The notes beneath the pieces are model-generated. The model saw nothing but the letters and a program-made list of their open reading frames with translations. It was not told the origin of the DNA and did not search any database. DNA of 64,000 bases, from assembly GCF_014640075.1 (NCBI RefSeq), contig NZ_BMGG01000011.1, forward strand, positions 62,432-126,431. The letters run 5' to 3'. Positions 15,683 through 64,000 of this stretch are shown one piece after another (position 1 is the first letter of the stretch; each line of letters opens with the position of its first letter). A program made the position numbers and the translations under genes. The stretch is from Chelatococcus reniformis. Lineage in GTDB: Bacteria; Pseudomonadota; Alphaproteobacteria; Rhizobiales; Beijerinckiaceae.

Positions 15683-15730
15683 GCCGCGCCCGCGGCCTTC
15701 GAAACCCCCGACTTCGCCAGGACATCACCC

Positions 15731-16474: not shown

Positions 16475-16576
16475 AGCGCCTTCGAGCGAAGCGGACGCCG
16501 GTTCGCGTGAAGAAAACGCGACAAGTCAAACAGATAGAGTATTTCGGCGATTCGAAGAAACGCGGAAATGCACTAG
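16472..16576. repeat. 105-bp intergenic repeat, copy 1
   Basis: Runs from TAGAGCGCC to ATGCACTAG, with imperfect inverted ends. A second copy at 41798-41901 matches it at all but about eleven positions and one gap; both include CCGGTTCGCGT, AAGAAAACGCG and TTCGGCGATTCGAAG. Elements of this kind are scattered through Hyphomicrobiales genomes. The copy overlaps the SDR stop codon and lies between the SDR and the first CoA ligase. Confidence 0.85.
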
Positions 16577-16643
16577 AATTGTCCACCGGTCGAGGCCGGC
16601 CCATCCACTCCCTATTCGCAGGCGACATGTTCAAGGAGCACCC

Positions 16644-18260: not shown

Positions 18261-18285
18261 TGCGATGGGAGACAAGGAGAGCTGG

Positions 18286-24468: not shown

Positions 24469-24478
24469 GGTCCAGTCC

Positions 24479-37069: not shown

Positions 37070-37334
37070 GTTCCCACCTCCTGGATTATTTTGGAATGCG
37101 TTTGCGCATATCACAGGAGCCGCGAAACGCCACCTGTGGCGATCCGGCACGCCGTGCCCTGCCCGGCTGCGGCATGGTCACCGCGTCGCAGGAACGCGCC
37201 GACGGCTTCTAACCGCCGCTGGCGACGCTATGGTGGCGGCGCGGCCGATCGTGGCCGCGGCTGATAATATACAGCACCGGGCCCCGGCCGACCCGCGCGG
37301 TCGACCGGCCACGGATCCTGCTGGGAGGTAACGC

Positions 37335-38534
37335 ATGAAGCCCGTCCTGACGGCGGTTCTCGCTCTGTCCCTGGTGGCGCCAGGAGCGGCCATCGCCGCC
37401 GAGAAGAAGTATGACCATGGAGCCTCCGACACCGAGATCCGCATCGGCCAGACCGTGCCCTACAGCGGTCCCGCCTCCTATGGCGGCGTGATCGGCCGGG
37501 TGCAGACGGCCTTCTTCGAGCAGCTCAACGCCAACGGCGGCATCAACGGACGCAAGGTCAACCTGATTTCGCTGGACGACGGCTACAGCCCGCCCAAGAC
37601 CGTGGAGGCGACGCGCCGCCTGGTCGAGAGCGAAGGCGTGCTCGCCACCTACTACTCGATGGGGACGGGGCCCCAGGCGGCCGTGCAGAAGTACCTCAAC
37701 AGCAAGAAGGTGCCGCAGCTCATGGTCGCCACCGGCTCGGCGAAGTGGGACGAACCGGAGAAGTTCCCCTGGTCCACGTCGGCCCTGGCGCTCTATTCCA
37801 CCGAGGCCAAGCTCTTCGCCAAATGGGTGCTGCAGAACAGGCCCGGCGCCAAGATCGCCATCCTCTATCAGAACGACGACCTCGGCCGCGACTACGTCAG
37901 GGACTTCAAGGCGGGCCTCGGCGACAAGGCGGCGACGCTGGTGGTGGCGGAATCGACGTACGACATCACCGACCCGACCATCGACAGCCAGATGGTGAAG
38001 CTCGCCGCCTCCGGCGCCGACCTGTTCTACAACGTCACCGTCGGCAAGTTCGTCTCCCAGTCGATCCGCAAGGCCGCCGAGCTGGGCTGGAAGCCCTTGC
38101 AATATCTGGTCGGCTCGTCGGCCAGCAACATGCTGATCAACGCCGGCGGCCCCGAGAACGCCAAGGGCCTTCGCTCGCTGATCTACGCCAAGCAGCCCGA
38201 CGCCGCGGAATGGGCCAACGACCCGGACATCAAGGCCTACCAGGAGTTCCGTGCCAAATACACGCCGACCATCGATCCCGCCGACGGCGTCGGCCTGCTC
38301 GCCTATTCCGGCGCCAAGGTGCTGGCGGAGCTGCTCAAGCGCTGCGGCGACGATCTCACCCACGCCAACCTGCTGAAGGTGGCCACCAACCTCAAGGACT
38401 TCGGCGCCATCCACCTGCTGCCGGGCATCGCCTACAACATGTCGCCGACCGACTACGAGCCGATCCGCGCACTCTATCTCGGCGAATACGACGGCAAGGA
38501 GTTCAAGCGGCCGGAGGCGCTGATCAGCCGCTGA
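37335..38534 (+). CDS. ABC transporter substrate-binding protein, Leu/Ile/Val family, paralogue A4
   Basis: A 399-aa periplasmic binding protein with signal peptide (MKPVLTAVLALSLVAPGAA, cut near IAAE) and mature start KKYDHGASDTEIRIGQTVPYSGP. GGGAGGT precedes the ATG. Close to the divergent paralogue at 35864 (both SPPKTVEATRRLVE). A strong intrinsic terminator follows at 38572, so it is a single-gene transcript separate from the next paralogue. Confidence 0.93.
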   Translation: MKPVLTAVLALSLVAPGAAIAAEKKYDHGASDTEIRIGQTVPYSGPASYGGVIGRVQTAFFEQLNANGGINGRKVNLISLDDGYSPPKTVEATRRLVESEGVLATYYSMGTGPQAAVQKYLNSKKVPQLMVATGSAKWDEPEKFPWSTSALALYSTEAKLFAKWVLQNRPGAKIAILYQNDDLGRDYVRDFKAGLGDKAATLVVAESTYDITDPTIDSQMVKLAASGADLFYNVTVGKFVSQSIRKAAELGWKPLQYLVGSSASNMLINAGGPENAKGLRSLIYAKQPDAAEWANDPDIKAYQEFRAKYTPTIDPADGVGLLAYSGAKVLAELLKRCGDDLTHANLLKVATNLKDFGAIHLLPGIAYNMSPTDYEPIRALYLGEYDGKEFKRPEALISR

Positions 38535-38571
38535 CGCCTGCGCGCCGGACACAGCGCTTTGCAACTGCGGA

Positions 38572-38597
38572 TGGCCGGGGCTCGCCCCGGCCATTTT
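38572..38597 (+). terminator. intrinsic terminator of the binding-protein gene at 37335
   Basis: TGGCCGGGG-CTCG-CCCCGGCCA is a perfect 9-bp GC-rich stem with a four-base loop, followed at once by TTTTCTTT. This is the clearest rho-independent terminator in the window. Confidence 0.85.
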
Positions 38598-38783
38598 CTT
38601 TGGTCGCGCCTCCTCGTGTCCGCGTTGACAGGCTCCTGGTCGCCGGATATTTTACTGACCGTTAAGTACAAAAATGACCGGAGGGCCGTGCATCATTCGC
38701 TCGGTCGATCCGATAAGCGGGCCGCCCCGTTCGCGGGCGAGCCCGCGACAGGCCGAGACAGGCCCCATTGGGGAGGACACACC

Positions 38784-39974
38784 ATGAAGCTTCGCGTTGG
38801 AGCCGCCGTCGTCGTGGCGGTGGCATGCGCAGCCGCCGGCGCGTTCGCGGCGGAGAAGAAATACAGCACCGGCGCCTCGGATACGGAGGTCCGGATCGGC
38901 CACACGACGGCCTACAGCGGGCCGGTGTCGGCCTTCGGCGCCGCCGGCCGCACGCTGGTCGGCTATTACAACATGATCAATGCCGCCGGCGGCATCAATG
39001 GCCGGCAGATCAAGATCATCTCGCTCGACGACGCCTACAGCCCGCCCAAGGCGGTGGAACAGACGCGCAAGCTGGTCGAGCAGGACGAGGTGCTGGCGAT
39101 CTACGGCGTATCGGGGTCGCCGACCAACGCCGCCACCCAGAAATACCTGAACGGCAAGGGCGTCCCGCAGCTCTTGATCGCCACCGGCGCAGCCAAGTTC
39201 AACAACCCCAAGGCGTTCCCCTGGACGATGCCGTTCTGGCCGACCTATGCGGTCGAGCAGAAGACCTATGTCGACTATATCCGCAAAGCCAAGCCGGGCG
39301 CCAAGATCGCCGTGCTCTATGCCAATGACGACTATGGCAAGGATCACCTGGCCGGCGTCGTCGCCGCGCTCCAGGGCGTCAAAGACGCGACGCTGGTCGC
39401 CCAGGCCAGCTACGAGAGCTCCGACGCGACCATCGACAGCCAGATCCTGGCGCTCAAGTCCTCCGGTGCCGACGTCTTCATCAGCGCGACGACGCCGAAG
39501 TTCGCCGCCCAAGCGATCCGCAAGATCAAGGAACTGGGCTGGAACCCGCTCCAGTTCGTCGCCAACGCGTCGAGCTCGGTCAGCGCCGTGTTGGAACCGG
39601 CCGGCCTCGACAACTCCAAGGGCGTCATCACCGGCGCCTTCCTCAAGCTGCCGAGCGACCCGCGCTGGTCCACCGACAAGGAGGTCCAGGACTATCTGGC
39701 GTTCATGAAGAAGTGGAACCCGCAGGACAACCCCTTCGACTTCTACGCCACGGTCGCCTACGCAAATGCCGGCATGCTTCACCACGTGCTGAAGACCGCC
39801 GGCGACGATCTGACCCGCGAGAACCTCATGCGCGTGGTCGGCAACATCGATGACGTGCACGTACCGCTGCACCTGTCGAGCATCGTCCTCAAGACAACGC
39901 CGGAGGACTTCAGCGCTTTTAGGACGCTGCAGCTCCAGCGCTTCGACGGCAAGCATTGGGTCGATATCGACTGA
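38784..39974 (+). CDS. ABC transporter substrate-binding protein, Leu/Ile/Val family, paralogue A5
   Basis: A 396-aa periplasmic binding protein. The ATG at 38784 follows GGGGAGGA; the signal peptide is MKLRVGAAVVVAVACAAAG, cut near AFAAE. The mature start KKYSTGASDTEVRIGHTTAYSGP and SPPKAVEQTRKLVEQDEVL place it in group A. The short AT-rich stretch before it (38645-38675, TTTTACTGACCGTTAAGTA) may contain its promoter. A stem-loop follows the stop. Confidence 0.92.
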   Translation: MKLRVGAAVVVAVACAAAGAFAAEKKYSTGASDTEVRIGHTTAYSGPVSAFGAAGRTLVGYYNMINAAGGINGRQIKIISLDDAYSPPKAVEQTRKLVEQDEVLAIYGVSGSPTNAATQKYLNGKGVPQLLIATGAAKFNNPKAFPWTMPFWPTYAVEQKTYVDYIRKAKPGAKIAVLYANDDYGKDHLAGVVAALQGVKDATLVAQASYESSDATIDSQILALKSSGADVFISATTPKFAAQAIRKIKELGWNPLQFVANASSSVSAVLEPAGLDNSKGVITGAFLKLPSDPRWSTDKEVQDYLAFMKKWNPQDNPFDFYATVAYANAGMLHHVLKTAGDDLTRENLMRVVGNIDDVHVPLHLSSIVLKTTPEDFSAFRTLQLQRFDGKHWVDID

Positions 39975-51148: not shown

Positions 51149-51177
51149 ATGACGATTTTATCATTTAATTTCTAAAT
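51149..51177. promoter_or_regulatory. LysR box candidates between lysR and the DMT exporter
   Basis: Two adjacent dyads lie in the 83-bp gap: ATGA-CGATTTTA-TCAT (51149-51164) and ATTTA-ATTTC-TAAAT (51163-51177). The second holds the T-N11-A spacing of LysR sites. The patch is AT-rich, in a GC-rich background, and lies where a divergent LysR promoter region should be. Confidence 0.4.
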
Positions 51178-52281: not shown

Positions 52282-52992
52282 TTACGTCGACCGCAGCCGT
52301 GTCCTTGCCGCCTTGCGGGCGCGGCTCTTGGGTCGTTGCTTCTCGACCGGACCCGTCTCTGCGCCGACAGCGAACAGCCCGTGCCGCAGCAGCTTCATGT
52401 AGGCGCTGTTGACAGCCGCGGGCACGGCCGCCTTGCTGCCGCCCCGTGCATAGCGGAAGGTCAGGTATGAGCGGGCGGCAAGCAGGATGTAGGCGATCGG
52501 CTCGATCTCGTCGTCGGTGAAATCGCGAAGATCACCGCGCTCCTTGGCCCGGCGCAGCGTGCGCAGGAATCCGTCGCCGAAATTCTCGACGTGCTGGCGG
52601 TAGATTTCGGGAACGAATACTTCGCCCTCGTTGAGGATTCGGTAGAACTCCGGGTGGATCTTGAGGAATTCGAACCAGGCGTTGAGCCGGGCCTCTTCGC
52701 GCGCGACCGGATCCGACACGGCAGCGACACTTTCGGTGACATGCTGAAGCAGAATTTCGCCGAGTGCGGGCAATAATTGCTCAAACAGATCCTGCCGCGA
52801 GTCGAAATAATTATAGAACGTGCCGTGCGCGACCTTGGCCACGCTTGTAATGCGGCTGATCGATGCATCGGCATAGCCGTATTTGCCGACGACGGCCGCC
52901 GCGGCAAGGAAGATCGCCCGCCGGATCCCCTCCGAGGTCTCGGCTCGGGTCTTCTTGATCCGTCTTGCCCGGACCGGCGCCGTCGCTGCCAT
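52282..52992 (-). CDS. TetR/AcrR-family transcriptional regulator
   Basis: A 236-aa TetR protein with helix-turn-helix IFLAAAAVVGKYGYADASI and SVAKVAHGTFYNYFDSRQDL. The C-terminal ligand domain includes FYRILNEGEVFVPEIYRQHVENF, and the tail is very basic (KQRPKSRARKAARTRLRST). I start at 52992 (MAATAPVRAR), with GGAAGGG nine bases upstream; the GTG at 53013 is an alternative. It is divergent from the large operon beginning at 53150 and is its likely regulator. Confidence 0.88.
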   Translation of the reverse strand: MAATAPVRARRIKKTRAETSEGIRRAIFLAAAAVVGKYGYADASISRITSVAKVAHGTFYNYFDSRQDLFEQLLPALGEILLQHVTESVAAVSDPVAREEARLNAWFEFLKIHPEFYRILNEGEVFVPEIYRQHVENFGDGFLRTLRRAKERGDLRDFTDDEIEPIAYILLAARSYLTFRYARGGSKAAVPAAVNSAYMKLLRHGLFAVGAETGPVEKQRPKSRARKAARTRLRST

Positions 52993-53063
52993 CCGCCTGA
53001 ACCCTTCCATCACTCGTGTCCGTGCCGCCCGCGCAGCCGCCTCCAGCGGATAGCACGATCGGC

Positions 53064-53091
53064 TTGACAGCCAAATCCCTGCATGAATAGT
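53064..53091 (+). promoter_or_regulatory. sigma-70-type promoter of the 53150-64000 operon
   Basis: TTGACA (53064-53069) and AATAGT (53086-53091) are 16 bases apart, pointing at the livM gene. Predicted initiation near 53098 leaves about 50 bases of leader to the TTG at 53150. The gap to the divergent TetR gene (start 52992) is short enough for one operator to serve both; ATGACTCGTGGATCAT (53098-53113) is an imperfect dyad at the start site. Confidence 0.45.
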
Positions 53092-53149
53092 GGTTCCATG
53101 ACTCGTGGATCATAAATCACCAAGCGCAACGGGTCGATGGGGAAACGCA

Positions 53150-54163
53150 TTGAGGTCAGTCGTTGAGCCGCTGAGCCCTTCCAAGGCTGGGGCCGCGCCG
53201 CACAAAAGCATCCTCGCCCGGTATCGGCCGTGGCTCGTCGCCCTGGCGGTGCTGGCGGCGCTGTTCGCCGCCGCGCCGCGGCTGCTGTCGGACTACCAGC
53301 TCTACACGCTCAACCTGATCCAGGTGAACATCCTGCTGGCCGTCGGTCTCAACCTGGTGATCGGCGTCACCCGCCAGTTCGCCCTGTTCAGCGGCGCGCT
53401 GCTCGGCATCGGCGCCTATGTCGCCGCGTTGCTGCAGATGCGCCTGGGCGTGCCGTTCCTGCTGTCGCTGCCGGTGGCCGTGCTGGCCACCATGGCCGTC
53501 TCGGCGGCGGTCAGCCTCGTCGCATGGCGCGCCGGCGGCCTCTACCTGGCCATGATCACCTTCGGCTTCGGCGAGGTGTTCCAGTTCATCCTCGTGCATG
53601 CGGACGCGATCACCAACGGCCCCGACGGGCTGGCCGTGCCGCGCCCAGCCTTCGCCGGCGTGTCCTTCGCCGCGCCGGCGCGGCTGTTCGAGCTGTTCCT
53701 GCCGCTCACGGCCATCGCCGTCGCCGGCTACCGCTTGATGGAGACGGGCTCGCTCGGCCGGACCATGACGGCGCTGGGCGATTCCGAGATCGCCCTCGCC
53801 AGCGTCGGCCGCGACCCGCGCATGGCCAAGACGATCGCCTTCGCCATCCAGGGCGCCTATGCCGGTCTCGCCGGCGCCATGTTCGCGGCCGCCGTGGGCT
53901 TCATCGACCCCTATTCCTTCGGGCTCGGCGTCACCCTCCAGCAGCTGACCGCGATCGCCGTCGGCGGCTTCGGCAGCCTCGCCGGTGCCGTTGTCGGCGG
54001 CGCCGTCCTCACCTTGATCGAGCGCGGGGTCATGGATCTGCCCGGCGTCCGCGAGATCGTCTATGGCCTGGCGCTGCTCGTCGTTTTCCTGGGCTTTCCG
54101 GCCGGGCTCGCCGGTCTCTTCTCGCGCCGACGCGCATCCAGGCCAGCGGACGCCGGCCGATGA
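53150..54163 (+). CDS. livM: branched-chain amino acid-type ABC transporter permease LivM
   Basis: A 337-aa inner-membrane permease with about nine hydrophobic segments. It has the LivM pattern IGVTRQFALFSGALLGIGAYVAAL and the loop GGFGSLAGAVVGGAVL. I choose the TTG at 53150, with GGGGA six bases upstream; a GTG at 53105 is in frame but would fall almost on the predicted transcription start. It opens an eleven-gene same-strand operon. Its partner permease livH is encoded nearly 7 kb downstream at 60105, an unusual separation. Confidence 0.9.
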   Translation: MRSVVEPLSPSKAGAAPHKSILARYRPWLVALAVLAALFAAAPRLLSDYQLYTLNLIQVNILLAVGLNLVIGVTRQFALFSGALLGIGAYVAALLQMRLGVPFLLSLPVAVLATMAVSAAVSLVAWRAGGLYLAMITFGFGEVFQFILVHADAITNGPDGLAVPRPAFAGVSFAAPARLFELFLPLTAIAVAGYRLMETGSLGRTMTALGDSEIALASVGRDPRMAKTIAFAIQGAYAGLAGAMFAAAVGFIDPYSFGLGVTLQQLTAIAVGGFGSLAGAVVGGAVLTLIERGVMDLPGVREIVYGLALLVVFLGFPAGLAGLFSRRRASRPADAGR

Positions 54164-54894
54164 GCCCACTCTTGGACATCCGCGGCGTCAGCGTCCGCTT
54201 CGGCGGGCTCGCAGCCGTGAGCGACCTGGCTCTGGCTCTGGGCCAGGGCGAGATCCACGCCCTGATCGGACCCAATGGCGCAGGCAAGAGCACCGTGATC
54301 AACTGCATCTCAGGCTTTCAGCCGCTGAGCGCGGGCGAGATGCGGCTGGGTGACGAACGGCTCGGGCAGCTGACGCCGGTCACGGCCGCCCGCAAGGGTA
54401 TCGCGCGCACCTTTCAGACACCGCAGCTGTTCGGCCGGCTCAGCGTTGCCGACAACGTGCGCGTCGCCTCGCGAAGCGGACGCACGGGCCTGTTCGACGG
54501 CGGCGAGCTGATCGAGCTCGTCGGACTGGCAGGCCTCCAGGCACGGGCCGCCGAGAGTCTTGCCTATGGTCAGCAGCGCCTGCTCGAAGTGGCCCGAGCG
54601 CTGGCCTGCGCCCCCCGCCTGCTGCTCCTCGACGAGCCCGCCGCAGGACTTGCAGCCGACGACATCGCCCGGCTGGCCCGGTTGCTGCGCCGCATCGCCG
54701 GCGAGCTCGGCCTCGGCATCTTGCTGGTCGAGCACAACGTCGGCCTGGTAAAGCGGCTGTGCGACCAGGCAACGGTGATGCACCACGGCCTCGTCATCGC
54801 CAGCGGCTCTCCCGCTGCGGTGCTGTCCGACCCGGCCGTGGTTACGGCCTATCTGGGCGCGCAGGCATCACCTTCGCAGGCCCGGCCATGCTGA
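54160..54894 (+). CDS. livG: branched-chain amino acid-type ABC transporter ATPase LivG
   Basis: A 244-aa ATPase. Walker A is GPNGAGKST, Q-loop region IARTFQTPQLF, signature LAYGQQRLLEVARAL, Walker B LLLLDEPAAGL and switch LLVEHNVGLV. It overlaps the livM stop by ATGA and the livF start by seven bases. Confidence 0.93.
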   Translation: MSPLLDIRGVSVRFGGLAAVSDLALALGQGEIHALIGPNGAGKSTVINCISGFQPLSAGEMRLGDERLGQLTPVTAARKGIARTFQTPQLFGRLSVADNVRVASRSGRTGLFDGGELIELVGLAGLQARAAESLAYGQQRLLEVARALACAPRLLLLDEPAAGLAADDIARLARLLRRIAGELGLGILLVEHNVGLVKRLCDQATVMHHGLVIASGSPAAVLSDPAVVTAYLGAQASPSQARPC

Positions 54895-55622
54895 GCGTGT
54901 CCGGCCTCACGCTCTCCCATGGCGCAGCCGTCGCCGTCAGGGACGTCTCGTTCGAGGTGCGTGAGCACGAGGTCACGGTGCTGCTCGGCGCCAACGGCGC
55001 CGGCAAGACCACGATCATGATGGCGCTGTCGGGCCTGCTACCGGTTCGCGCCGGCGATATCCGTCTCGACGGGCACCGCATCACCGGCGCCGGCAACGAT
55101 CGACTCGTCGGCCTCGGCATCGTGCAGGTGCCGCAAGGCCGGCAGGTGTTTCCCGGCATGACCGTGCGCGAAAACCTCGAGCTCGGTGCCTTCCTGCGCC
55201 GGGACCGCAACGTCGGCACCGATCTCGATCGCATCTTCGCGCATTTCCCCAAGCTCGCCGAGCGAACAGGCCAGACCGCCGGAACGCTCTCGGGCGGCGA
55301 GCAGCAGATGCTCGCGATCGGCCGCGCGCTGATGGGCAAGCCGCGCCTGCTGCTGCTCGACGAGCCCTCGCTGGGCCTCGCACCCGTGATCGTCGACGCG
55401 GTCTACGACATCGTCGCCGAGTTGGTGCGCGACGGCCTCACCATCCTGCTTGCGGAGCAGAACGTCGCCAAGGCGCTGTCGGTGGCGGCCCGCGGCTTTG
55501 TCCTCGAGAACGGAACGGTCATCGCATCGGGATCCGGGGCCGAGCTCGCGGCGACCGATTTCGTCCACAGGGCCTACCTCGGATCGTCCGACGACGACCT
55601 CCCTCATGACGCGGAGAGATAA
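54888..55622 (+). CDS. livF: branched-chain amino acid-type ABC transporter ATPase LivF
   Basis: A 244-aa ATPase. Walker A is GANGAGKTT, VPQGRQVFPGMTVRENLELG follows, then signature LSGGEQQMLAIGRAL, Walker B LLLLDEPSLGLAP and LLAEQNVAKAL. Followed after three bases by the thiolase-fold gene, linking uptake with catabolism in one transcript. Confidence 0.93.
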   Translation: MLSVSGLTLSHGAAVAVRDVSFEVREHEVTVLLGANGAGKTTIMMALSGLLPVRAGDIRLDGHRITGAGNDRLVGLGIVQVPQGRQVFPGMTVRENLELGAFLRRDRNVGTDLDRIFAHFPKLAERTGQTAGTLSGGEQQMLAIGRALMGKPRLLLLDEPSLGLAPVIVDAVYDIVAELVRDGLTILLAEQNVAKALSVAARGFVLENGTVIASGSGAELAATDFVHRAYLGSSDDDLPHDAER

Positions 55623-55625
55623 TTG

Positions 55626-56840
55626 ATGAGCTTGAGATCGGATTCGGCCGTCGCCATCGCCGGCGTGGGCGAAACAGCGGTCGGGAACCTGCCGGGAACC
55701 CATTCGACGGAACTCTACATCGAGGCCGCCCGTCGCGCGATCGAGGACTCAGGTCTTGCCAAGAGCGAGATCGACGGCCTGCTCACGACGGCATCCGTCG
55801 TGGACGACAACGTCCGCCACCACATGGTCATCGCCGAGCACCTCGGCCTGTTCTGCAAGACTTTGTGCGATACCCTGCGCACGGGCGGTGCCGCATTCGG
55901 CTACGCCGTGCAGCTGGCGCAGTGGGCCGTGCAGTCGGGTCGCTGCCGGGCCGTGCTCGTGGTCTCGGCCGACAACCTCCTGAGCGGGCCGGGTGCCGGC
56001 CATGGCGTCACCGCCTACACCGAGCTCGGCGCTCATTCGCTCGAGTTCGAAGTGCCGTTCGGCGGCCATATCCCCTCCTTCTACGCGCTCGTCGCTGCCC
56101 GGCACATGCACGAGTACGGCACCACCGAAGAGCAATTGGCGGCCATCGCGGTGGCGTGCCGCAAGCACGCGGCGCTGAATCCGGCAGCCCAGAAGCGGAC
56201 GCCGATCACCATCGACGACGTGATCAACTCGCGCCGGATTTCCTCGCCGCTGAAGCTGCTCGACTGCAGCCTGATCTCGGATGGCGGCGGCGCCGTCATC
56301 GTCACCACGCTGGAGCGGGCCCGGGATTTGAAGCAGCGGCCCATCCGCGTGCTCGGCACGGGGCAGGCGCAGTCCTACTATCACATGGGGCATCTGGCCG
56401 GCGGCGTCGGCCTGCCCCGCGAGCGCAAGGGCGAGTTCAATCTCACCTCGACCGTGCAGAAGGTCGCCGGCCGGGACGCCTTCGGCGAAGCAGGCATCAC
56501 GCCGGCCGACATCGACGTGGCGGAGATCTACGACAGCTTCACGATCACCGCCCTGATGCAGTTCGAAGACCTCGGCTTCTGCAAGAAGGGCGAGGGCGGT
56601 GCCTTCGTCGAGGGCGGCCGCATCGAGCTCGGCGGCGCGCTGCCCACCAACACCCACGGCGGCCTGCTGTCCTACGCCCATCCGGGCATGCCGGGCGGCA
56701 TCTTCCACCTCATCGAAGGCGTGCGCCAGTTGCGGCACCAATGCGGGCCGCGCCAGGTCGAGGGCGCCCAGACCGCGTTGGTGACCGCGGTCAGCGCCGT
56801 CGCCTCCAACCACTCCGTCTGCATCCTCGGGAGGGACTGA
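55626..56840 (+). CDS. thiolase-fold protein, SCP2-thiolase/Ltp2-like, probable acyl-CoA aldolase
   Basis: A 404-aa thiolase-superfamily protein of the lipid-transfer (SCP-x, Ltp) branch. C-terminal motifs are intact: EIYDSFTITALMQFEDLGF, NTHGGLLSYAHPGMPGG and SVASNHSVCILGRD-type ending. At the N-terminal active-site turn, the usual Cys-x-Ser-Gly reads LRTGG (84-88), so the nucleophilic Cys seems lost; nearby Cys77 and Cys81 are out of register. This matches retro-aldolases such as Ltp2 of steroid side-chain breakdown, which work with a DUF35 partner. The next gene, three bases on, is a DUF35 protein. Confidence 0.85.
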   Translation: MSLRSDSAVAIAGVGETAVGNLPGTHSTELYIEAARRAIEDSGLAKSEIDGLLTTASVVDDNVRHHMVIAEHLGLFCKTLCDTLRTGGAAFGYAVQLAQWAVQSGRCRAVLVVSADNLLSGPGAGHGVTAYTELGAHSLEFEVPFGGHIPSFYALVAARHMHEYGTTEEQLAAIAVACRKHAALNPAAQKRTPITIDDVINSRRISSPLKLLDCSLISDGGGAVIVTTLERARDLKQRPIRVLGTGQAQSYYHMGHLAGGVGLPRERKGEFNLTSTVQKVAGRDAFGEAGITPADIDVAEIYDSFTITALMQFEDLGFCKKGEGGAFVEGGRIELGGALPTNTHGGLLSYAHPGMPGGIFHLIEGVRQLRHQCGPRQVEGAQTALVTAVSAVASNHSVCILGRD

Positions 56841-56842
56841 CC

Positions 56843-57256
56843 ATGACCAGCGCGATGCCGACCATACCGCCCGAGCCGACGCCGCTGTCGCGGCCGTTCT
56901 GGGACGCCTGCCGGGAGCACCGGCTGATCATGCAGGCCTGCCAGGATTGCGGCGAGCTGACCTTCTACCCTGCCCACATGTGCCCCACCTGCGGCGGCGG
57001 CCACCTCAAGTGGCAGGAGCTCAGCGGCCGCGGCCGGATCCATTCGGTGACGACGGTCTATCGCCCGGCAGCCCCGGTCTTCGCCGGGTCTGTGCCCTAC
57101 GTCATCGCCCTCGTCGAAGTGGCCGAGGGGCCGATCATGATGAGCAACATCGTGGGGCCTGGTGCGCTCGAAGCGAAGATCGGCGATACCGTCGACGTCG
57201 TCTTCGAAGACCTCGCCGAGGTGACGCTGCCGCGCTTCAAGCTGCCCGGGGGCTGA
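56843..57256 (+). CDS. Zn-ribbon/OB-fold DUF35 protein, partner of the thiolase-fold protein
   Basis: A 137-aa protein with a rubredoxin-like zinc ribbon (Cys33, Cys36, Cys47, Cys50 in CQDCGELT and CPTCGGG) followed by the OB-fold (GRGRIHSVTTVYRP, IGDTVDVVFEDL). DUF35 proteins bind acyl-CoA and pair with thiolase-fold enzymes, for example ChsH2 with Ltp2. The immediate adjacency to the thiolase-fold gene implies a complex. Confidence 0.9.
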   Translation: MTSAMPTIPPEPTPLSRPFWDACREHRLIMQACQDCGELTFYPAHMCPTCGGGHLKWQELSGRGRIHSVTTVYRPAAPVFAGSVPYVIALVEVAEGPIMMSNIVGPGALEAKIGDTVDVVFEDLAEVTLPRFKLPGG

Positions 57257-57258
57257 CG

Positions 57259-58842
57259 GTGCAGACCTTCGTCGATCTGGCGGCCCGGCTGGAGGCGCGC
57301 GGCAGTAGCCCGGCCCTGGTTTGCCAGGGCCGGGCCCATACGGCCGGCGCACTCGCCGACGAGGCGGGGCGGATCGCCCGTGCGCTCATGGCGGCCGGCG
57401 TCGGCCGTGGCGAGCGCGTCTGCGTCTGGTTGCCGAACGGGCCCGAGTTCGTCCTCATCGAGCTCGCGACAGCGATGATCGGCGCCGTGTTCGTGCCGAT
57501 CCATACCCGTTACGGATCGAGCGAACTCGCCAACATCCTGGGTCAGGCGGAGCCGGCGATGCTGGTCTACCAGCGCGCCTTCCTGCAAGCCGATCTGGAC
57601 GCGACGCTGCTGAAAGCCGCGCCGCAGGTCGCAGCCGGCGCGCCGCAAGCCGCCGCGGTCAGATTCGTCTCCCTGGACGGCAGCCGTCATGCCGGCGTCA
57701 CCACCTGGTCGGACTTGCTGGCCGGGGCCGATGCGGTCCCCGAGAGCGCCCTCGAAGCCGCACGTGCCGCCGTGCGCCCGGACGACCCGGCCGTCTGCAT
57801 CTTCACCAGCGGCACGACCGGCGTGCCCAAGGGCGCCATGCTCAGCCATCGGGCGATCCTGACGACCGAGCAGCGCGTCGGCGACGCCATGGGCATCGCC
57901 GACGGCGACCGGGTGCTCTACGCCGCACCGCTGCCGTCGGTGTTCGGCTGCTGCAATGCGCTGGTCGCCACGTGGAGCCATGACGCCTGCCTCGTGCTGA
58001 TGCCCACCTTCGAAGCCGGCGAGGCGCTGGCGACGATCGAGGCCGAGCGGTGCACGATGATCTACGGCGTGCCCACCATGTTCGTGATGCTGCTCGGCCA
58101 TCCCGCCTTCGCAGCGGAGCGGACGCGCTCGCTGCGCGGCGGCATCGTCGGGGGCGCCCCGTGCGCGCCGGCGCTGGCCGAGGCGATCATGCACGATCTC
58201 GGCGTCAAGGATCTCGTCAGCGGCTACGGCATGTCGGAGACCTGCGCGGTGATTTCGATCACCCGCATCGGCGATCCGCCACCCGTGGTCGCCCAAACCG
58301 TGGGGCGCCCGCTGCCCGGCGTCGAGATCCGTATCGTCGATCCGGCCGCGGACGTGCTGGTCGCCGCCGAGGAGGGCGAAATCTGCATCCGCGGCATCAA
58401 CCTGATGCTCGGCTATTTTGGCGGCAGCAGCGGCCTGAAGCGGCCGTTTCCCGATGGCTGGTTCCGCACCGGCGACCTCGGCACCATCGATGCCGACGGC
58501 AATCTGCGCATCACCGGCCGCTGCTCCGACATGATCCTGGTGGGCGGCTTCAACGTCTATCCGGTCGAGATCGAAGCGTTGCTCGCGCGCCATCCCGCCG
58601 TCAGCCAGGCCCACGTCGTCGGCATCCCCGACGAACGCATGGGCGAGCGGCCGGTCGCCTTCGTCCAGCTCGACGCCCATGTCCGCGTCGGCGCCGAGGA
58701 GCTGGCGCAGTACTGCACAGAAAACATCGCCAAATACAAGGTTCCGGCGCGGTTCATCTTCGTCGACGACTTTCCGATGACGCCGCTCGGCAAAATCCAG
58801 AAGTTTGAGCTCAAGAAGATGGCGACCCAAGTAGGCGCCTGA
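57259..58842 (+). CDS. AMP-dependent acyl-CoA ligase
   Basis: A 527-aa ANL ligase. P-loop FTSGTTGVPKG; adenylate motif GYGMSETCAV; hinge region WFRTGDLGTIDADGNLRITGRCSDMILVGGFNVYP; A10 lysine in TPLGKIQKFELKK. The GTG at 57259 lies two bases after the DUF35 stop, so translation is coupled. It would activate an imported acid for the cleavage enzymes encoded before it. Confidence 0.91.
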   Translation: MQTFVDLAARLEARGSSPALVCQGRAHTAGALADEAGRIARALMAAGVGRGERVCVWLPNGPEFVLIELATAMIGAVFVPIHTRYGSSELANILGQAEPAMLVYQRAFLQADLDATLLKAAPQVAAGAPQAAAVRFVSLDGSRHAGVTTWSDLLAGADAVPESALEAARAAVRPDDPAVCIFTSGTTGVPKGAMLSHRAILTTEQRVGDAMGIADGDRVLYAAPLPSVFGCCNALVATWSHDACLVLMPTFEAGEALATIEAERCTMIYGVPTMFVMLLGHPAFAAERTRSLRGGIVGGAPCAPALAEAIMHDLGVKDLVSGYGMSETCAVISITRIGDPPPVVAQTVGRPLPGVEIRIVDPAADVLVAAEEGEICIRGINLMLGYFGGSSGLKRPFPDGWFRTGDLGTIDADGNLRITGRCSDMILVGGFNVYPVEIEALLARHPAVSQAHVVGIPDERMGERPVAFVQLDAHVRVGAEELAQYCTENIAKYKVPARFIFVDDFPMTPLGKIQKFELKKMATQVGA

Positions 58843-58865
58843 TCAAGCCCAAGGGAGGTTCAGAC

Positions 58866-60098
58866 ATGATTGATCTACCGAGAGGGGTGCTCCTGGGCCT
58901 CGCGGCCGTCGCCGTCGGCAGCATCTCCACTCCGGCTCGGGCGCAGAACGCGCCGGGCGTCACCGATACGACGATCCGCATCGCCGTCGCCGATGCCCTG
59001 AGCGGCGCCTATTCCCAATACGGCGTGCCCAGCCTCAACGGCGTGAAGTACGTGTTCGACAAGGTCAATCAGGCCGGCGGCCTGTTCGGCCGCAAGCTCG
59101 AAGTGGTGTCGGAGGACGATGGCTGCTCGCCCAAGCAGGCCGTAGGCGTCGCCACCAAGCTCGCGTCGGAGAAATCGGTGCTCGCCGTGCTCGGCCTCAC
59201 CTGCTCGTCGGCGGCCGTGGCCGTGCGAGACACCATCGCGCCGACGACGCCAATTCCGTTCATCTCCTTCTCGAGCGGCGGCCATACCTCTTCGTCTGCG
59301 GCCCTGGGCGGCCTGAAGCCTAACTTCTACTTCATCGCGACCTCGGTGCATGCCCAGGGCGGCGCCCTGGTGAATTTCGCCGTGAACCAGCTCAAGCCGA
59401 CCCGCGTCGCCTTCATCGGCCAGACCGACGTCTATGGTAAAGAGGGCCGCCAGGGCGTCGAGGCCATGCTCGCGTCCTACGGCCTCAAGTTGGTCGCCGA
59501 CGAGACCATGGAGCCGCGCGGCACCGACGCCAGTGCCCAGGTGCTCAAGCTGAAGGCGGCCAATCCCGACGTGGTGATCGCCTTCCTATACCAGGTGCCA
59601 GCCCAGACACTGCTGCGCCAGGCCGACGAACTCGGCTTCCGGGCCAAGATCATCACCTCTGCCTCAGTCACGGACTCGAGCATCTACACCTCGCTACAAC
59701 CGAGTGCACTGGAGAACTACTACGGTGGCATGCTCGCCAGGGACGTGCTCACCGGCCCGCTGATGAAGCCGTTGATGACCAGCCTTCAGACGCAGTTTCC
59801 GGGTGTGACGTTCAACCCCCTGGTGGCGTCCGGCATCGGCGCAGGCGAGGTCATCGTTGCGGCGCTGCGGCGCGTCGGAAAGGACGTAACGGCCGAGAAG
59901 CTGGTCGCGGAGCTCGACCGCACCCGTGACATGGCGACGAGCGCGCTGAGCTATCCCGTGACCTTCACGCCCGACAACCACATGGGCGGGCGCGGCCTCC
60001 ACATCTACGAGATCAGGAACGGCGTGGAGATGTCGGCCATGCCGGGGTATTGGCCCGGAACGGAGAAAGCCGCCGGTCCGGCCATCGTGAAGGACTAA
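58866..60098 (+). CDS. ABC transporter substrate-binding protein, Leu/Ile/Val family (operon with livMGF/livH)
   Basis: A 410-aa periplasmic binding protein with signal peptide (MIDLPRGVLLGLAAVAVG, cut near ARAQ) and mature start APGVTDTTIRIAVADALSGAYSQYG. GGGAGG precedes the ATG. It is unlike the group A and B proteins. Lying directly before livH, it is probably the specific binding subunit of the importer formed with livM, livG and livF upstream. Confidence 0.92.
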   Translation: MIDLPRGVLLGLAAVAVGSISTPARAQNAPGVTDTTIRIAVADALSGAYSQYGVPSLNGVKYVFDKVNQAGGLFGRKLEVVSEDDGCSPKQAVGVATKLASEKSVLAVLGLTCSSAAVAVRDTIAPTTPIPFISFSSGGHTSSSAALGGLKPNFYFIATSVHAQGGALVNFAVNQLKPTRVAFIGQTDVYGKEGRQGVEAMLASYGLKLVADETMEPRGTDASAQVLKLKAANPDVVIAFLYQVPAQTLLRQADELGFRAKIITSASVTDSSIYTSLQPSALENYYGGMLARDVLTGPLMKPLMTSLQTQFPGVTFNPLVASGIGAGEVIVAALRRVGKDVTAEKLVAELDRTRDMATSALSYPVTFTPDNHMGGRGLHIYEIRNGVEMSAMPGYWPGTEKAAGPAIVKD

Positions 60099-60104
60099 CC
60101 ACTG

Positions 60105-60977
60105 ATGTCGATGCTGCCTCAATTGCTTAGCGCGGGCGTCGTCAGCGGCTGCATCTATGCGCTCGTCGCGCTCGGCCTGGTCGTCGTCTTCAAGGCGACC
60201 GGGGTCATCAACTTCGCCCACGGCAGCACCATCCTGATCGGCGCCTATATCGGCGTCACCGCAGTGCGATCGGTCGGCCTGCCCTACCCGGTGGCGTTCG
60301 CCGCAGCCGTCGTGGTCGCGGCGGCCATCGGCTGGATCAGCTATGCCGCCGTTTACAAGCGCCTCCTCGGGGCCCCGCACATGATCCAGGTGTTGGCGAC
60401 CCTCGCGGTCGCCAACATTCTGAGCGGCGCCGCGACGCTCACCTGGGGTTCCGAGAGCTACGGCTTTCCGCCCAGCGCGCGAATGCGGCCGATCATGACC
60501 GAGCCTGTCGTCGTCACCGGGCAGCAGGCGCTCATCGTCGTCGGGGCGCTGATCGTGATGATCGCCCTGACCGCCTATTTCCGCTACGGGCGATCGGGCA
60601 AGGCCATGCGGGCGCTCGCCGAGAACCAGGTCGGCGCCGGTCTGTGCGGCATCCGCACCGATCGGGTGTTCGCCATCTCCATCACGCTCAGCGGGGCGCT
60701 GGGCGCGATCGCGGGCGTGCTCTACGCGCCGCTCACTCTGGTGGATCCCAGCTTCGGCTGGCTGCTGATCAAGGGCTTCGCCGCAGCGGCCGTCGGTGGG
60801 CTGACCAGCCTGCCGGGAGCGGTGGTCGGCGGCATCGTGCTGGGCCTATGCGAAAGCCTCTGGGTGGCGGCTCTGCCGGCGCTGTGGGCCCCCAGCCTCA
60901 GCTATGTGCTGATCATCATCGTGCTGCTCATCAAGCCCACCGGGCTGTTCGGCACATCGGCCGTGCAGAAGCTGTGA
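60105..60977 (+). CDS. livH: branched-chain amino acid-type ABC transporter permease LivH
   Basis: A 290-aa inner-membrane permease with eight hydrophobic segments, opening LPQLLSAGVVSGCIYALVAL and holding VINFAHGSTILIGAYIG and GGLTSLPGAVVGGIVLG. It completes the importer whose livM, livG and livF lie at 53150-55622; four catabolic or binding genes lie between. Six bases separate it from the binding-protein gene. Confidence 0.92.
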   Translation: MSMLPQLLSAGVVSGCIYALVALGLVVVFKATGVINFAHGSTILIGAYIGVTAVRSVGLPYPVAFAAAVVVAAAIGWISYAAVYKRLLGAPHMIQVLATLAVANILSGAATLTWGSESYGFPPSARMRPIMTEPVVVTGQQALIVVGALIVMIALTAYFRYGRSGKAMRALAENQVGAGLCGIRTDRVFAISITLSGALGAIAGVLYAPLTLVDPSFGWLLIKGFAAAAVGGLTSLPGAVVGGIVLGLCESLWVAALPALWAPSLSYVLIIIVLLIKPTGLFGTSAVQKL

Positions 60978-61000
60978 CGCGGCCAACGCAAGGAGGACCC

Positions 61001-62608
61001 ATGCGCATCGCCGGCGACGAGGTACCCTGGGGATCCATGCACGCGCTGCTGCAGGCACGGGCGCGCCGGCACGGCGACGCGCCACGCGTCGACGTGGCCG
61101 GAACGGTCACCTCCTGGGGCGAGATCGACCGCCTGTCCGATCGCGTCGGGGCCGCGCTGGCCCAGCGCGGCGTCGGTCCCGGCGACCGAGTCTGCACGTT
61201 GATGGACGGCCGGATCGAGCAACTGCTGGTGTGGTTCGCGGCGAGCAAGCTCGGCGCCGTCTGGGCTCCGCTCAACTCGGCGCTCGTCGGCGACGACCTG
61301 GCCTACACGATCAGGGACGCGGCGCCCGCGGCGCTCGTCGCCGAGGGCGAGACGGCAGGACGGTTCCGCGACTGGCCCGACGATGTCCCGCTGCCCGCGG
61401 CGCGGTTCAGCGCCGATGTCGCATCCGACGCGTCCGACGCCGGCTTCGGCCCGTTCGCCGAGCTCCTGTCGGATGGCGGCCAGTTGCCCGCGATCGAGGT
61501 GTCGCCGAGCGATCCGGGCGTCATCATCTACACCGGCGGAACGACGGGCCGCCCGAAAGGCGTGGTGCTGCCGCACTTCGCCTTCCTCGCCGCCGGCTAC
61601 CGCTTTCGCGACGCCTTCGACGTGCGGCCCGACGATCGGCAATACTCGGTCCTGCCTCTGTTCCATGTGGGCGGCACCATGCTCGGCATCATGGGGCCGC
61701 TGGTCACCGACATCCCCACGGCGCTCGACCGGCGCTTCAGCGGCACCCGGTTCTGGCAGCGGGCCCGGCAGACCGGCGCCACGCTCATCGACCCGGTCGG
61801 CACCATGGTGTCGCTGCTGTGCGAGTTGCCCGCGACGGCGAGCGACCGCGACCACCAGGTCCGGGCCGGCGTTGGCGTGACCGGTCAGGTGCCGGCGCAC
61901 GTGCCGTCGACGTTCGCGCGCCGCTTCGGCGTGTCGCTCGTCAACCTCTATTCGCTCTCCGAGGCCGGCGGCGTCCTGATCACCTACACCAAGCCTGGCA
62001 GCGTGCGTCCGCAGGCGCACGGCGAGCCCGGCCGGTGGGCCGACTTCCGGGTGGTCGACCGCTTCGATCAGGACTGTGCGGCCGACGCCGTCGGCGAGAT
62101 CGTGCTGCGGCCGCGGGTGCCTTACACCTTCATGCTCCGCTACCACAACGACGCGGAGCGCACGCTCGAATGCTGGTCCAATCTGTGGCTGCACACGGGC
62201 GATCTGGGCAAGCTCGACGCGGATGGGTTCCTCCATTTCATTGGCCGCGCCGCACACTGGCTGCGCTGCCGCGGCGAGAACGTCTCGGCCTACGAGGTCG
62301 AAGCGACCGTGCTGGGTTGCGCCGGCGTTGCCGAGGCCGCGGTGGTCGGCGTGCCGGCGCCGCTCGGCGAAGACGACGTCAAGGTCTTCGTCGTCCGCCG
62401 GCCCGACGCGACGGTGAGCGAGCAGGACATCGTCGATCACTGCGCACGGCGGCTCGCCCGCTTCAAGGTCCCCCGCTACGTCGAATTCGTGGCGTCGTTT
62501 CCGCGCTCGGCCGCCAAGCAGGAGATCGAGCGCCATAAGCTGCGCGCGCTGGGTAACGAGCGGGCCTGGGATGCAAAGGCGTCCGGCTTGGAACCGGGAA
62601 AGATCTGA
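61001..62608 (+). CDS. AMP-dependent acyl-CoA ligase-like protein with altered C-terminal motif
   Basis: A 535-aa ANL protein. The P-loop is YTGGTTGRPKG (Gly for the common Ser); adenylate region LYSLSEAGGV; core LHTGDLGKLDADGFLHFIGRAAHWLRCRGENVS. The C-terminal A10 motif reads RSAAKQEIERHKLR: aligned on HKLR, the catalytic Lys position is Glu and a Lys lies two residues earlier, with one residue inserted. Adenylation may therefore be slow or different. The ATG at 61001 follows AAGGAGGA. Confidence 0.88.
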   Translation: MRIAGDEVPWGSMHALLQARARRHGDAPRVDVAGTVTSWGEIDRLSDRVGAALAQRGVGPGDRVCTLMDGRIEQLLVWFAASKLGAVWAPLNSALVGDDLAYTIRDAAPAALVAEGETAGRFRDWPDDVPLPAARFSADVASDASDAGFGPFAELLSDGGQLPAIEVSPSDPGVIIYTGGTTGRPKGVVLPHFAFLAAGYRFRDAFDVRPDDRQYSVLPLFHVGGTMLGIMGPLVTDIPTALDRRFSGTRFWQRARQTGATLIDPVGTMVSLLCELPATASDRDHQVRAGVGVTGQVPAHVPSTFARRFGVSLVNLYSLSEAGGVLITYTKPGSVRPQAHGEPGRWADFRVVDRFDQDCAADAVGEIVLRPRVPYTFMLRYHNDAERTLECWSNLWLHTGDLGKLDADGFLHFIGRAAHWLRCRGENVSAYEVEATVLGCAGVAEAAVVGVPAPLGEDDVKVFVVRRPDATVSEQDIVDHCARRLARFKVPRYVEFVASFPRSAAKQEIERHKLRALGNERAWDAKASGLEPGKI

Positions 62609-62611
62609 GCC

Positions 62612-63061
62612 ATGCACACGCTTTTCTTCGACGACTTCGAGATCGGACAAGAATTCGTCAGTCCGGGCCGGACAGTCACCGACACCGATCTGTCGCTGTT
62701 CTGCATGCTGTCGGGCGATTGGCATCCGATCCATTCCGACGAGGAGTTCGCCAGGACGACGCCGTTCGGGCGCCGCATCGTCGGCGGCGTCTTCGGCATC
62801 GCGCTCGTCACCGGCATGATGGGGCGCTGGGGCATTTTCGAACGCTCGGTCGAAGCGATGCTGTCGATCGATGATTGGCGCTTCCTGGCGCCGATCTTCG
62901 TGGGCGACACGCTGACCGTGCGCATGACCATCATGGGCAAGAAACCCACCAGCGACGGACGGCGCGGCGTCCTCGATCGCGGCTTCACGATCGTCAACCA
63001 GGCCGGCTCGCCCGTGCAGGAAGGCCGCTCGGCCGCGCTGATCAAGCGCCGCGACGAATAG
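62612..63061 (+). CDS. MaoC-like hot-dog fold hydratase
   Basis: A 149-aa single hot-dog-domain protein. The hydratase-2 motif is SGDWHPIHSD with the catalytic pair Asp36 and His41; His38 stands where Asn is usual. FLAPIFVGDTLTVRM is typical of the core strand. It probably hydrates an enoyl-CoA to the 3-hydroxyacyl-CoA that the thiolase-fold/DUF35 pair would cleave. Three bases follow the ligase stop. Confidence 0.9.
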   Translation: MHTLFFDDFEIGQEFVSPGRTVTDTDLSLFCMLSGDWHPIHSDEEFARTTPFGRRIVGGVFGIALVTGMMGRWGIFERSVEAMLSIDDWRFLAPIFVGDTLTVRMTIMGKKPTSDGRRGVLDRGFTIVNQAGSPVQEGRSAALIKRRDE

Positions 63062-63132
63062 GCCACGCTCGGCCGCAGGCATCGCCCGGCGACTTGCCGG
63101 AATACGCAATCAAGACAGACGGGGAGGATGGG

Positions 63133-64000
63133 ATGAGAACGAACAGGTTGCTTTGCGCTGCCCTCATGAGCCTGGGGCTGGCCACGGCCGGACGGGCCGA
63201 GGACGGCCCCATCAAGCTCGGCGTCCTGAACGACCATTCCGGAGCCTATGCCACGATCGACGGACCAAGCTCGGTCGACGCGGCCCGCATGGCGGTCGAG
63301 GATTTCGGCGGCACCGTCCTCGGCCGCAAGGTCGAGATCATCGGCGCCGACCATCAGAACAAGGCCGACGTCGGCGCCGCCATCGCCCGCAAATGGCTGG
63401 ATGTGGACGGCGTCACCGCCATCGTCGACGTGGCCGTGTCGTCGGTCGCCTTTGCCGTGCAGGAACTGGCGCGCGAGCGCAACAAGATCGTCATCTTCTC
63501 CGGCGCCGGCAGCTCCGACCTCACCGGCAAGGCCTGCTCGCCCACCAGCGTGCACTGGACCTACGATACCTACGCGCTGACGGCGGGAACCGCCGGCGCG
63601 CTGGCCCGGCAGGGCGGCAATTCGTGGTACTTCATCACCTCGGACAACGCTTTCGGGGCCGCGCTTCAGCGCGATGCCACCGCCGCCCTCAAGGCGGCCG
63701 GCGGCAGCGTCGTCGGCACATCGCTGCACCCGGCGCCCACCGCCGACTTCTCCAGCTTCGTGCTGCAGGCGCAGGCTTCGAAGGCCAAGATCATCGCGCT
63801 CGCCAACGCCGGCGACGATACTAAGAATGCGGTCAAGGCCGGTCGCGAATTCGGGCTCAGCGGCCAGCAGCAGATGGTCGGCCTGCTCACCCTGCTACCC
63901 GACGTGCACGGTCTGGGGCTGGAGGCGGCGCAGGGCCTGCTGCTGACCGAGTCGTTCTACTGGAACGCGAACGATGAGGCGCGCGCCTTCTCGAAACGGT
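63133..64000 (+). CDS. ABC transporter substrate-binding protein, Leu/Ile/Val family, group B (cut by window edge)
   Basis: The first 289 residues of a periplasmic binding protein. The ATG at 63133 follows GGGGAGG; signal peptide MRTNRLLCAALMSLGLATAG, cut near RAED. The mature part (IKLGVLNDHSGAYATIDGPS, RMAVEDFGGTVLGRKVEII, ADHQNKAD, SSDLTGKACSPTSVHW) closely parallels the protein at 14480, including the SDLTxKACSPT stretch. The C-terminal lobe lies beyond the window. It is the eleventh gene of the operon and the operon's second binding protein. Confidence 0.92.
   Translation, partial: MRTNRLLCAALMSLGLATAGRAEDGPIKLGVLNDHSGAYATIDGPSSVDAARMAVEDFGGTVLGRKVEIIGADHQNKADVGAAIARKWLDVDGVTAIVDVAVSSVAFAVQELARERNKIVIFSGAGSSDLTGKACSPTSVHWTYDTYALTAGTAGALARQGGNSWYFITSDNAFGAALQRDATAALKAAGGSVVGTSLHPAPTADFSSFVLQAQASKAKIIALANAGDDTKNAVKAGREFGLSGQQQMVGLLTLLPDVHGLGLEAAQGLLLTESFYWNANDEARAFSKR

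Follow-up and report, generated by a model that had tools for sequence, protein, structure and literature searches.

A LIV-type importer interleaved with acyl-CoA enzyme genes and a putative thiolase-fold retro-aldolase in Chelatococcus reniformis

Why should the two permease genes of an importer be held apart by genes for acyl-CoA enzymes? The question is raised by a stretch of 64,000 nucleotides of the Chelatococcus reniformis genome (contig NZ_BMGG01000011.1; hereafter the window), at the end of which eleven genes lie in a row on one strand, livM-livG-livF-THL-DUF35-LIG1-SBP1-livH-LIG2-MaoC-SBP2 (53105-64335, +), with a divergent TetR gene ahead. They encode an ABC importer of the branched-chain amino acid (LIV) type with two periplasmic binding proteins (SBP1 and SBP2), a thiolase-fold enzyme (THL) with its DUF35 partner, two AMP-forming ligases (LIG1 and LIG2) and a MaoC-type hydratase. 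A preliminary description had proposed that the set imports an acid, makes its CoA ester, hydrates it and cleaves it by retro-aldol. The best explanation of the locus would indeed be a catabolic unit for acid uptake, CoA activation, hydration and retro-aldol cleavage; we hold it to be reasonably probable, and it is favoured because it accounts for every gene kind present. The earlier scheme survives as the best reading since in THL the nucleophile of thiolases is gone while the Tyr of the aldolases is retained, and each of its steps is a prediction from sequence.

Active site of the thiolase-fold enzyme

The solved proteins nearest to THL in sequence were, in order, 4u4e (E 2.8e-83), Ltp2 (6ok1), Sal (9myr), 7yvy and BbsB (7pxp). 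A model was built from a 34-row alignment (pLDDT 89.6, pTM 0.92) and a single-sequence fold (pLDDT 33.1) was set aside in its favour. The nearest folds to this model (Z ~51-57) were TbSLP, the archaeal thiolase of the thiolase/HMG-CoA-synthase complex, Sal, 7yvy, Ltp2, PhlC-type acylases, 4u4e and BbsB; SCP2 thiolases matched at Z 45-49 and classical thiolases near 40, and Foldseek placed 4u4e and Sal at the top. A zinc-ribbon OB-fold gene adjoins THL, as expected of DUF35-partnered thiolase-fold enzymes, and by sequence THL is of the SCP2-thiolase-like/DUF35 class. The ribbon of the partner has four cysteines; that of Shy, the partner of Sal, is given as Cys3His1 in the available text of PMC12329534.

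SCP2-type thiolases are marked by a nucleophilic Cys and the His of an HDxF motif, and THL has Gly88 and Tyr302 at these places. Cys and His are found there in both BbsB and 7yvy, so that the benzoylsuccinyl-CoA thiolase BbsAB, although like THL in its thiolase fold and DUF35-type partner, retains what THL has exchanged. In Sal and Ltp2 that Tyr serves the retro-aldol reaction, and a Gly at the place of the nucleophile is argued to exclude thiolysis (available text of PMC12329534). As Gly88 replaces the nucleophilic Cys and Tyr302 is kept, no thiolysis is expected of THL, and retro-aldol cleavage is probably its reaction.

The remaining active-site residues set THL apart from both known aldolases. 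Tyr302, in the motif YDSF, corresponds to Tyr294 (YDHF) of Ltp2, whose catalytic residues are Tyr294 and Tyr344 according to the same text (PMC12329534), which also reports for CtSal that Tyr302 and Cys304 are catalytic and that activity of the Cys304Ser variant was undetectable. At the place of Tyr344, the general acid of Ltp2, THL has His352, and of the Sal dyad Tyr302/Cys304 only the Tyr is present, followed by Ser304. The sets thus read Gly/Tyr/Ser304/His352 in THL, Gly/Tyr/His/Tyr in Ltp2 (His296 and Tyr344) and Gly/Tyr/Cys/Gln in Sal (Cys304 and Gln352). The position of His352 is that of the HPxG histidine of thiolases. Since Ser304 and His352 are unlike either model, the acid of THL would differ from both; strictly, THL appears to be neither Ltp2 nor Sal, and the label 'Ltp2-type' used in the preliminary description has to be given up in its strict sense, the second catalytic Tyr being a His and the His of YDHF a Ser. 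In other respects Ltp2-ChsH2(DUF35) and Sal-Shy(DUF35) resemble THL, sharing the thiolase fold, the DUF35 partner, the Gly for the Cys and the Tyr base, except that Shy fuses MaoC and DUF35. The same Gly/Tyr/Ser/His set as in THL occurs in 4u4e, a putative thiolase of Sphaerobacter thermophilus and the closest solved sequence.

The family comparison covered 93 rows, ours among them, after 3 short members (300 aa or less) of the 96 in the cluster had been dropped. Gly and Tyr were both present in 90, and the sets Gly-Tyr-Ser-His, Gly-Tyr-Ala-His and Gly-Tyr-Cys-His occurred 36, 27 and 16 times. Gly88, Tyr302 and Asp303 were invariant in the 34-row alignment, which was selected from the loci in hand and includes our own. 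Thus 79 relatives out of 93 have Gly and Tyr, then Ser, Ala or Cys, then His, and genes of this kind carry the public labels thiolase or acetyl-CoA acetyltransferase; should they encode aldolases, a large number of thiolysis annotations would be wrong, and a unit this compact, which brings its importer and a regulator gene along, would be a handy place to find a substrate for the class.

In a tree, THL paired with its counterpart in G252, a genome from a different family within the order, followed by four rows from gene clusters with a tripartite tricarboxylate (Tct) importer and then by two Microbacteriaceae rows, all with good support. The forks around Sal, Ltp2 and our THL are weak and long branches meet there, so that the claim is limited to the pair standing beside the Tct-cluster clade.

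Proposed route and competing explanations

According to the proposed route, SBP1 or SBP2 would capture a carboxylic acid in the periplasm and LivH-LivM/LivG-LivF, judged by their families, would import it. LIG1, perhaps with LIG2, would form its CoA thioester, and MaoC would hydrate the 2,3-double bond to give a 3-hydroxyacyl-CoA. THL with its DUF35 partner would then split the C2-C3 bond by retro-aldol to acetyl- or propionyl-CoA and an aldehyde or ketone, as the lost cysteine and the kept Tyr302 suggest, with His352 proposed as proton donor in place of Tyr344 (Ltp2) or Cys304 (Sal).

AMP-forming acyl-CoA ligases use a catalytic Lys near the C-terminus, which LIG1 has in an ordinary motif, whereas LIG2 reads SAAKQEIERHKL, where the Lys comes one residue too soon and its normal column is taken by Gln, a shift also seen in G252; the column holds Lys in 26 of 37 aligned rows, window ligases being counted twice. 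(R)-specific hydratases of the MaoC type depend on an Asp/His pair, and Asp36 and His41 are both present. The best solved relatives of LIG1 include feruloyl-, coumarate- and fatty-acyl-CoA ligases, with distant scores, and that of LIG2 is FadD13; these matches were not decisive for the substrate. Ligase pairs near THL at two other loci (L066, L068) likewise comprise one ordinary and one lysine-less member.

Pfam found no acyl-CoA dehydrogenase among the genes of the unit, and the gene run of its counterpart in G252 has none either, though such a gene accompanies THL in 27 of 65 loci (described below). The imported acid is therefore probably already alpha,beta-unsaturated or 3-hydroxylated. On that condition the unit would be 'self-contained', as had been proposed; otherwise it lacks the dehydrogenase. 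The further suggestion of a 'branched or cyclic' acid may hold but gained no support. A literature search gave no lead for the idea of a DitF/abietane system, and no description of this unit was found in it, within open-licence papers.

A number of observations weigh against this route. THL has Ser at the place of the Cys304 essential in CtSal, and another proton donor must be assumed; the candidate His352 is replaced by Ser in four THLs of the sister clade (L032, L033, L112, L113) and is thus not kept among close relatives. These sister THLs adjoin another importer, a CoA-transferase and an FAA hydrolase, with no MaoC seen there, and their chemistry may differ. Both the Asp and the His of MaoC occur in only 5 of 13 rows of its cluster, ours and that of G252 among the five. 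Two genes resembling acyl-CoA dehydrogenases by eye lie at 23347-25690 of the window, and a dehydrogenase encoded elsewhere would remove the argument for an unsaturated or 3-hydroxylated substrate. As for the importer, Thr102 of the leucine-binding protein corresponds in SBP1 to Gly in a multiple alignment but to Thr in a pairwise one, and the Glu226 discussed below is missing as well from each of the 7 further window proteins of this kind included in the comparison, so that the importer of the unit is not singled out by its loss. Finally, terminator-like matches in the region numbered 9 compared to 4.4 (sd 2.1) in shuffled sequence, including one close to where livM ends; these are short stems that we did not take as real terminators, though some may be.

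Four other explanations were weighed. That THL and DUF35 form a C-C bond or transfer an acyl group, as do PhlABC or the archaeal thiolase/HMG-CoA-synthase complex, so that the unit would modify an acid rather than degrade it, is unlikely. PhlC/CsATase and the archaeal complex match the fold of THL at Z 52-56, and the C88S variant of CsATase is among the structures matched; these enzymes act via a Cys, however, which THL does not have, and an importer with ligases and a hydratase looks catabolic.

Ordinary beta-oxidation, with THL as the last-step thiolase for the imported acid, has a lower probability still. It would agree with the names acetyl-CoA acetyltransferase and thiolase carried by the NCBIfam relatives of THL, all of them below cut-off, and with the HPxG His352, retained as in the two thiolases compared, but not with Gly88 and Tyr302 in the places of the nucleophilic Cys and the HDxF His, nor with the absence of both 3-hydroxyacyl-CoA and acyl-CoA dehydrogenases from the eleven genes.

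A true steroid or bile-acid side-chain system, that is an Ltp2 or Sal orthologue with an attached importer, is slightly more improbable again. Steroid side-chain removal does join MaoC, DUF35 and a thiolase-fold aldolase, as far as the available texts describe it (PMC12329534, PMC11321319), and 6ok1 and 9myr are among the matches of THL. THL nevertheless has the second catalytic residue of neither enzyme and pairs with neither in the tree, where support for the deep forks is low; MaoC and DUF35 are encoded separately, at a distance of four genes, and no steroid-ring genes were recognised in the frames read, no genome search aimed at them having been made.

The least probable is an amino-acid importer whose genes happen to stand in one operon with those of enzymes unrelated to it: its proteins are of the branched-chain amino acid family, but Glu226 of the leucine-binding protein, which holds the amino group of the ligand, corresponds to Ala in SBP1 and Leu in SBP2, and importer and enzyme genes stand together in two families. 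SBP1 retains Ser79 and Tyr202 of the leucine-binding protein; the alignment of SBP2 is less sure, the two binding proteins being 16% identical. From these alignments, the loss of Glu226 would speak against plain amino acids and points to no particular substrate.

The preferred route of import, ligation, hydration and retro-aldol cleavage has a precedent. CouPSTU is an importer of the LIV type, and CouA, of the enoyl-CoA hydratase family, does both hydration and cleavage. In the p-coumarate route of Rhodopseudomonas palustris the CouPSTU importer, the CouB ligase and the CouA hydratase lie by one regulator gene, a nearness taken from locus numbers in the available text (PMC3610893). By analogy this route would be the nearest precedent for the unit, and importers clustered with a CoA ligase and a hydratase/aldolase are thus already known. 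It differs in that one protein hydrates and cleaves, under a MarR-type regulator, whereas our unit has MaoC and the thiolase-fold/DUF35 pair for these steps and a TetR regulator. A bolder proposal would make THL-DUF35 a third class of thiolase-fold retro-aldolase, with a Tyr/His pair compared to Tyr/Tyr in Ltp2 and Tyr/Cys in Sal, and the unit a full equivalent, with two enzymes, of the CouA/Ech route for coumarate, importing an alpha,beta-unsaturated acid and then activating, hydrating and splitting it without a redox step; this combined claim is put forward tentatively, with the odds against it.

Gene order, conservation and settings of THL relatives

Each of the eleven frames reads on the + strand with no internal stop and scores above cut-off for the Pfam family to be expected: BPD_transp_2 (PF02653) for the permeases LivM and LivH, ABC_tran for the ATPases LivG and LivF, Thiolase_C_1 for THL, OB_ChsH2_C and zf-ChsH2 for DUF35, AMP-binding for LIG1 and LIG2, Peripla_BP_6 for SBP1 and SBP2 and MaoC_dehydratas for MaoC. 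The two permeases, two ATPases and Peripla_BP_6 proteins are those of a LIV-type ABC importer, with two binding proteins rather than one. livM and livG overlap by 4 bases and livG and livF by 7; the gaps that follow are of 3 (livF-THL), 2 (THL-DUF35), 2 (DUF35-LIG1), 23 (LIG1-SBP1), 6 (SBP1-livH), 23 (livH-LIG2), 3 (LIG2-MaoC) and 71 bases (MaoC-SBP2). The tight spacing described at first, with SBP2 71 bases on, was therefore borne out, as was the separation of livM and livH by enzyme genes. The two permease genes are 6,044 bp apart, and the split is also kept in G252. The genome has 114 hits to PF02653, a family that also covers permeases for sugars and nucleosides. For 100 of them a partner on the same strand lies within 700 bp, for 10 it lies at 1.4-1.6 kb and 2 have none within 30 kb; the remaining pair is that of the unit, and by this spacing its split around enzyme genes is unique in the genome.

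Nine LIV-type binding proteins are encoded in the window. Five of their genes, at 5789-8385 and 35864-39974, have no permease match within 2 kb. At 14480-19920 lies a binding protein, checked with Pfam, that shares 47% identity with SBP2. Read by eye, a TetR-like gene precedes it, an SDR-like gene and two genes resembling AMP ligases come after it, and no permeases adjoin.

The order and orientation of all 12 genes, the divergent TetR included, are identical in G252, with protein identities of 70% (TetR), 75% (livM), 65% (livG), 66% (livF), 87% (THL), 68% (DUF35), 63% (LIG1), 76% (SBP1), 70% (livH), 70% (LIG2), 73% (MaoC) and 74% (SBP2). Beyond the twelve genes the flanks are unlike on both sides, which places the arrangement beyond chance.

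The spread is narrow, as far as can be seen from searches that scored few top candidates per sampled genome, so that closer copies may exist. Among 397 sampled genomes of the order, THL matches of at least 87% came from the genome itself and G252, and so did the SBP1 matches (2 of 397); a third genome with a THL match (G435, 51%) has it in a different setting. The gene-order check in other Hyphomicrobiales that had been suggested thus gave the full order in one other genome of the 397, and the unit is not widespread. In the family, 44 of 199 genomes have a THL match at E <= 1e-60, the best after our own being 64%. At E <= 1e-120 our genome stood alone among 385 genomes of the class and 398 of the phylum (overlapping samples), and THL was not found in 3 other genomes of the family of G252. 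One of two other genomes of the genus has a 39% match and the other none at E <= 1e-60. A wider scan reached 64% among the best 80 matches listed, from which records of our own genome were possibly omitted. In a plasmid collection, a near-DNA search returned 46 records, none covering 80% of the query; the 20 records on the list are short fragments, almost all of livF and one of THL. The THL protein found 147 plasmid records at E <= 1e-60, all below 60% identity. Combined, the comparisons suggest that the unit looks like a real, co-inherited one with a patchy occurrence, and because of this patchiness it was probably carried horizontally.

After G252, the closest THLs among the matches listed (63-64%) are those of Devosia (L032), Jannaschia (L033), G055, G111 and G087. 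Three of their loci (L032, L033, L113) have the run TctC-THL-DUF35-FAA hydrolase-CoA transferase III-TctB-TctA, and a fourth (L112) departs from them by a single wider gap; the G087 locus (L114), where THL is alone in its called run and the TctA gene is further away, was not counted. These Tct clusters (Devosia, Jannaschia, G055, G111) resemble our unit in joining an importer and CoA activation to THL-DUF35, but with a tripartite tricarboxylate importer and a class III CoA-transferase instead of the LIV importer and ligases, and with Ser at the His352 position in the four counted. In Devosia, Jannaschia and G055 (L112) the cluster extends into deacetylase-like and isopropylmalate-dehydrogenase-like genes. 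At the two Microbacteriaceae loci an FAA hydrolase and a deacetylase-like gene precede THL, and one (L035) also has LIV genes further upstream, judged by eye from similarity.

Across 65 THL loci of at least 14 kb (our own and G252 included; 22 shorter ones and 3 without a clustered THL were omitted), the same run contains DUF35 in 50, an acyl-CoA dehydrogenase in 27, an AMP ligase in 12, MaoC in 11, TctC in 11 and LIV genes in 3, namely our own, G252 and L119. The labels come from similarity clusters; a representative was put through Pfam for the dehydrogenase, TctA, TctB, TctC, CoA-transferase, FAA hydrolase and a few more, and the other labels were judged by eye. THL-DUF35 would thus be a module joined to varied importers and CoA-activating enzymes. 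A second locus of our genome (L118, C7:257309-267405) has MaoC-THL-DUF35 and, beginning ~330 bp after DUF35, livH-livM-livG-livF, a ligase, an SDR-like gene and a binding protein; at L117 the LIV genes lie beyond a long sensor-like gene from THL and were not counted. As a common pairing, LIV importer and THL were rejected: with 3 of 65 loci plus L118 it is recurrent, not general. In G252, ~1.4 kb past the unit (L125), one opposite-strand gene is followed by a MaoC-like gene, a THL (40%) and a DUF35 in a row.

Upstream region and features of the unit

Features of the unit and of the region ahead of it (positions in the window)
Feature	Position	Strand	Evidence
TetR-family regulator, divergent	52282..53013	-	Pfam TetR_N 38.6 bits, cut-off 24; 70% identical over 178 aa to G252 relative in the same place
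Promoter-like TTGACA-16-AATAGT	53064..53091	+	pattern match
Operator-like palindrome ATGAC-N6-ATCAT	53098..53113	.	15/16 identical to G252 site
livM-type permease, start uncertain (may instead be TTG 53150 or further in)	53105..54163	+	PF02653 112 bits
livG-type ATPase	54160..54894	+	ABC_tran and BCA_ABC_TP_C
livF-type ATPase	54888..55622	+	ABC_tran; top NCBIfam match LivF, under its cut-off
THL, thiolase-fold enzyme, Gly88/Tyr302/Ser304/His352	55626..56840	+	Thiolase_C_1 187.6 bits
DUF35 partner, zinc ribbon and OB fold, four ribbon cysteines	56843..57256	+	OB_ChsH2_C, zf-ChsH2; PDB 9myr_B, 6ok1_B; CxxC...CxxC
LIG1, AMP-forming acyl-CoA ligase, C-terminal lysine motif GKIQKF	57259..58842	+	AMP-binding 284.6 bits
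SBP1, LIV-type periplasmic binding protein	58866..60098	+	Peripla_BP_6
livH-type permease	60105..60977	+	PF02653 125 bits
LIG2, AMP-forming ligase nearest PRK06155, displaced C-terminal lysine (SAAKQE)	61001..62608	+	AMP-binding 188 bits; NF004808 408 bits, below cut-off 722
MaoC-type hydratase, Asp36 and His41	62612..63061	+	MaoC_dehydratas 83 bits
SBP2, second LIV-type binding protein	63133..64000, continuing to 64335	+	Peripla_BP_6; PDB 3i09 E 1.5e-115

The gap between tetR and livM carries ATGACTCGTGGATCAT (53098-53113). Its counterpart in G252, on the opposite strand, is ATGACTCGTGGGTCAT, which lies within a palindrome with perfect 11-base arms, and the remainder of the gap aligned poorly by eye between the two genomes. 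The 16-mer core has exactly one mismatch-free match in each genome; at up to 2 mismatches there are 3 further sites in our genome and 4 further in G252, and the pattern read backwards had zero matches in either. A sigma-70-like sequence stops 6 bases 5' of the palindrome and is probably the reason why the preliminary description began at 53064; promoter-like sites number 2 in the region compared to 0.9 expected in shuffles, which is weak by itself. As the GTG at 53105 lies inside the palindrome, the real start of livM may be further in. TetR is likely the putative repressor of the unit, and synteny and palindrome predict that the genes are probably regulated together. Of the earlier claim of one operon, joint inheritance and probable co-regulation can be kept, and the excess of terminator-like matches speaks against a single transcript.

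A second palindrome of the form ATGAY-N6-RTCAT is found at 51149-51164, at the start of a LysR-like gene facing an EamA-like gene; the window has 2 such sites compared to 0.13 expected, the pattern itself having been derived from the 53098 site. At the other end, SBP2 stops 335 bases past the 64-kb window, as seen in the extended locus (L001), and is followed 3' by a GAF/Fis-type regulator and then an aldehyde dehydrogenase, neither of them part of the conserved set.

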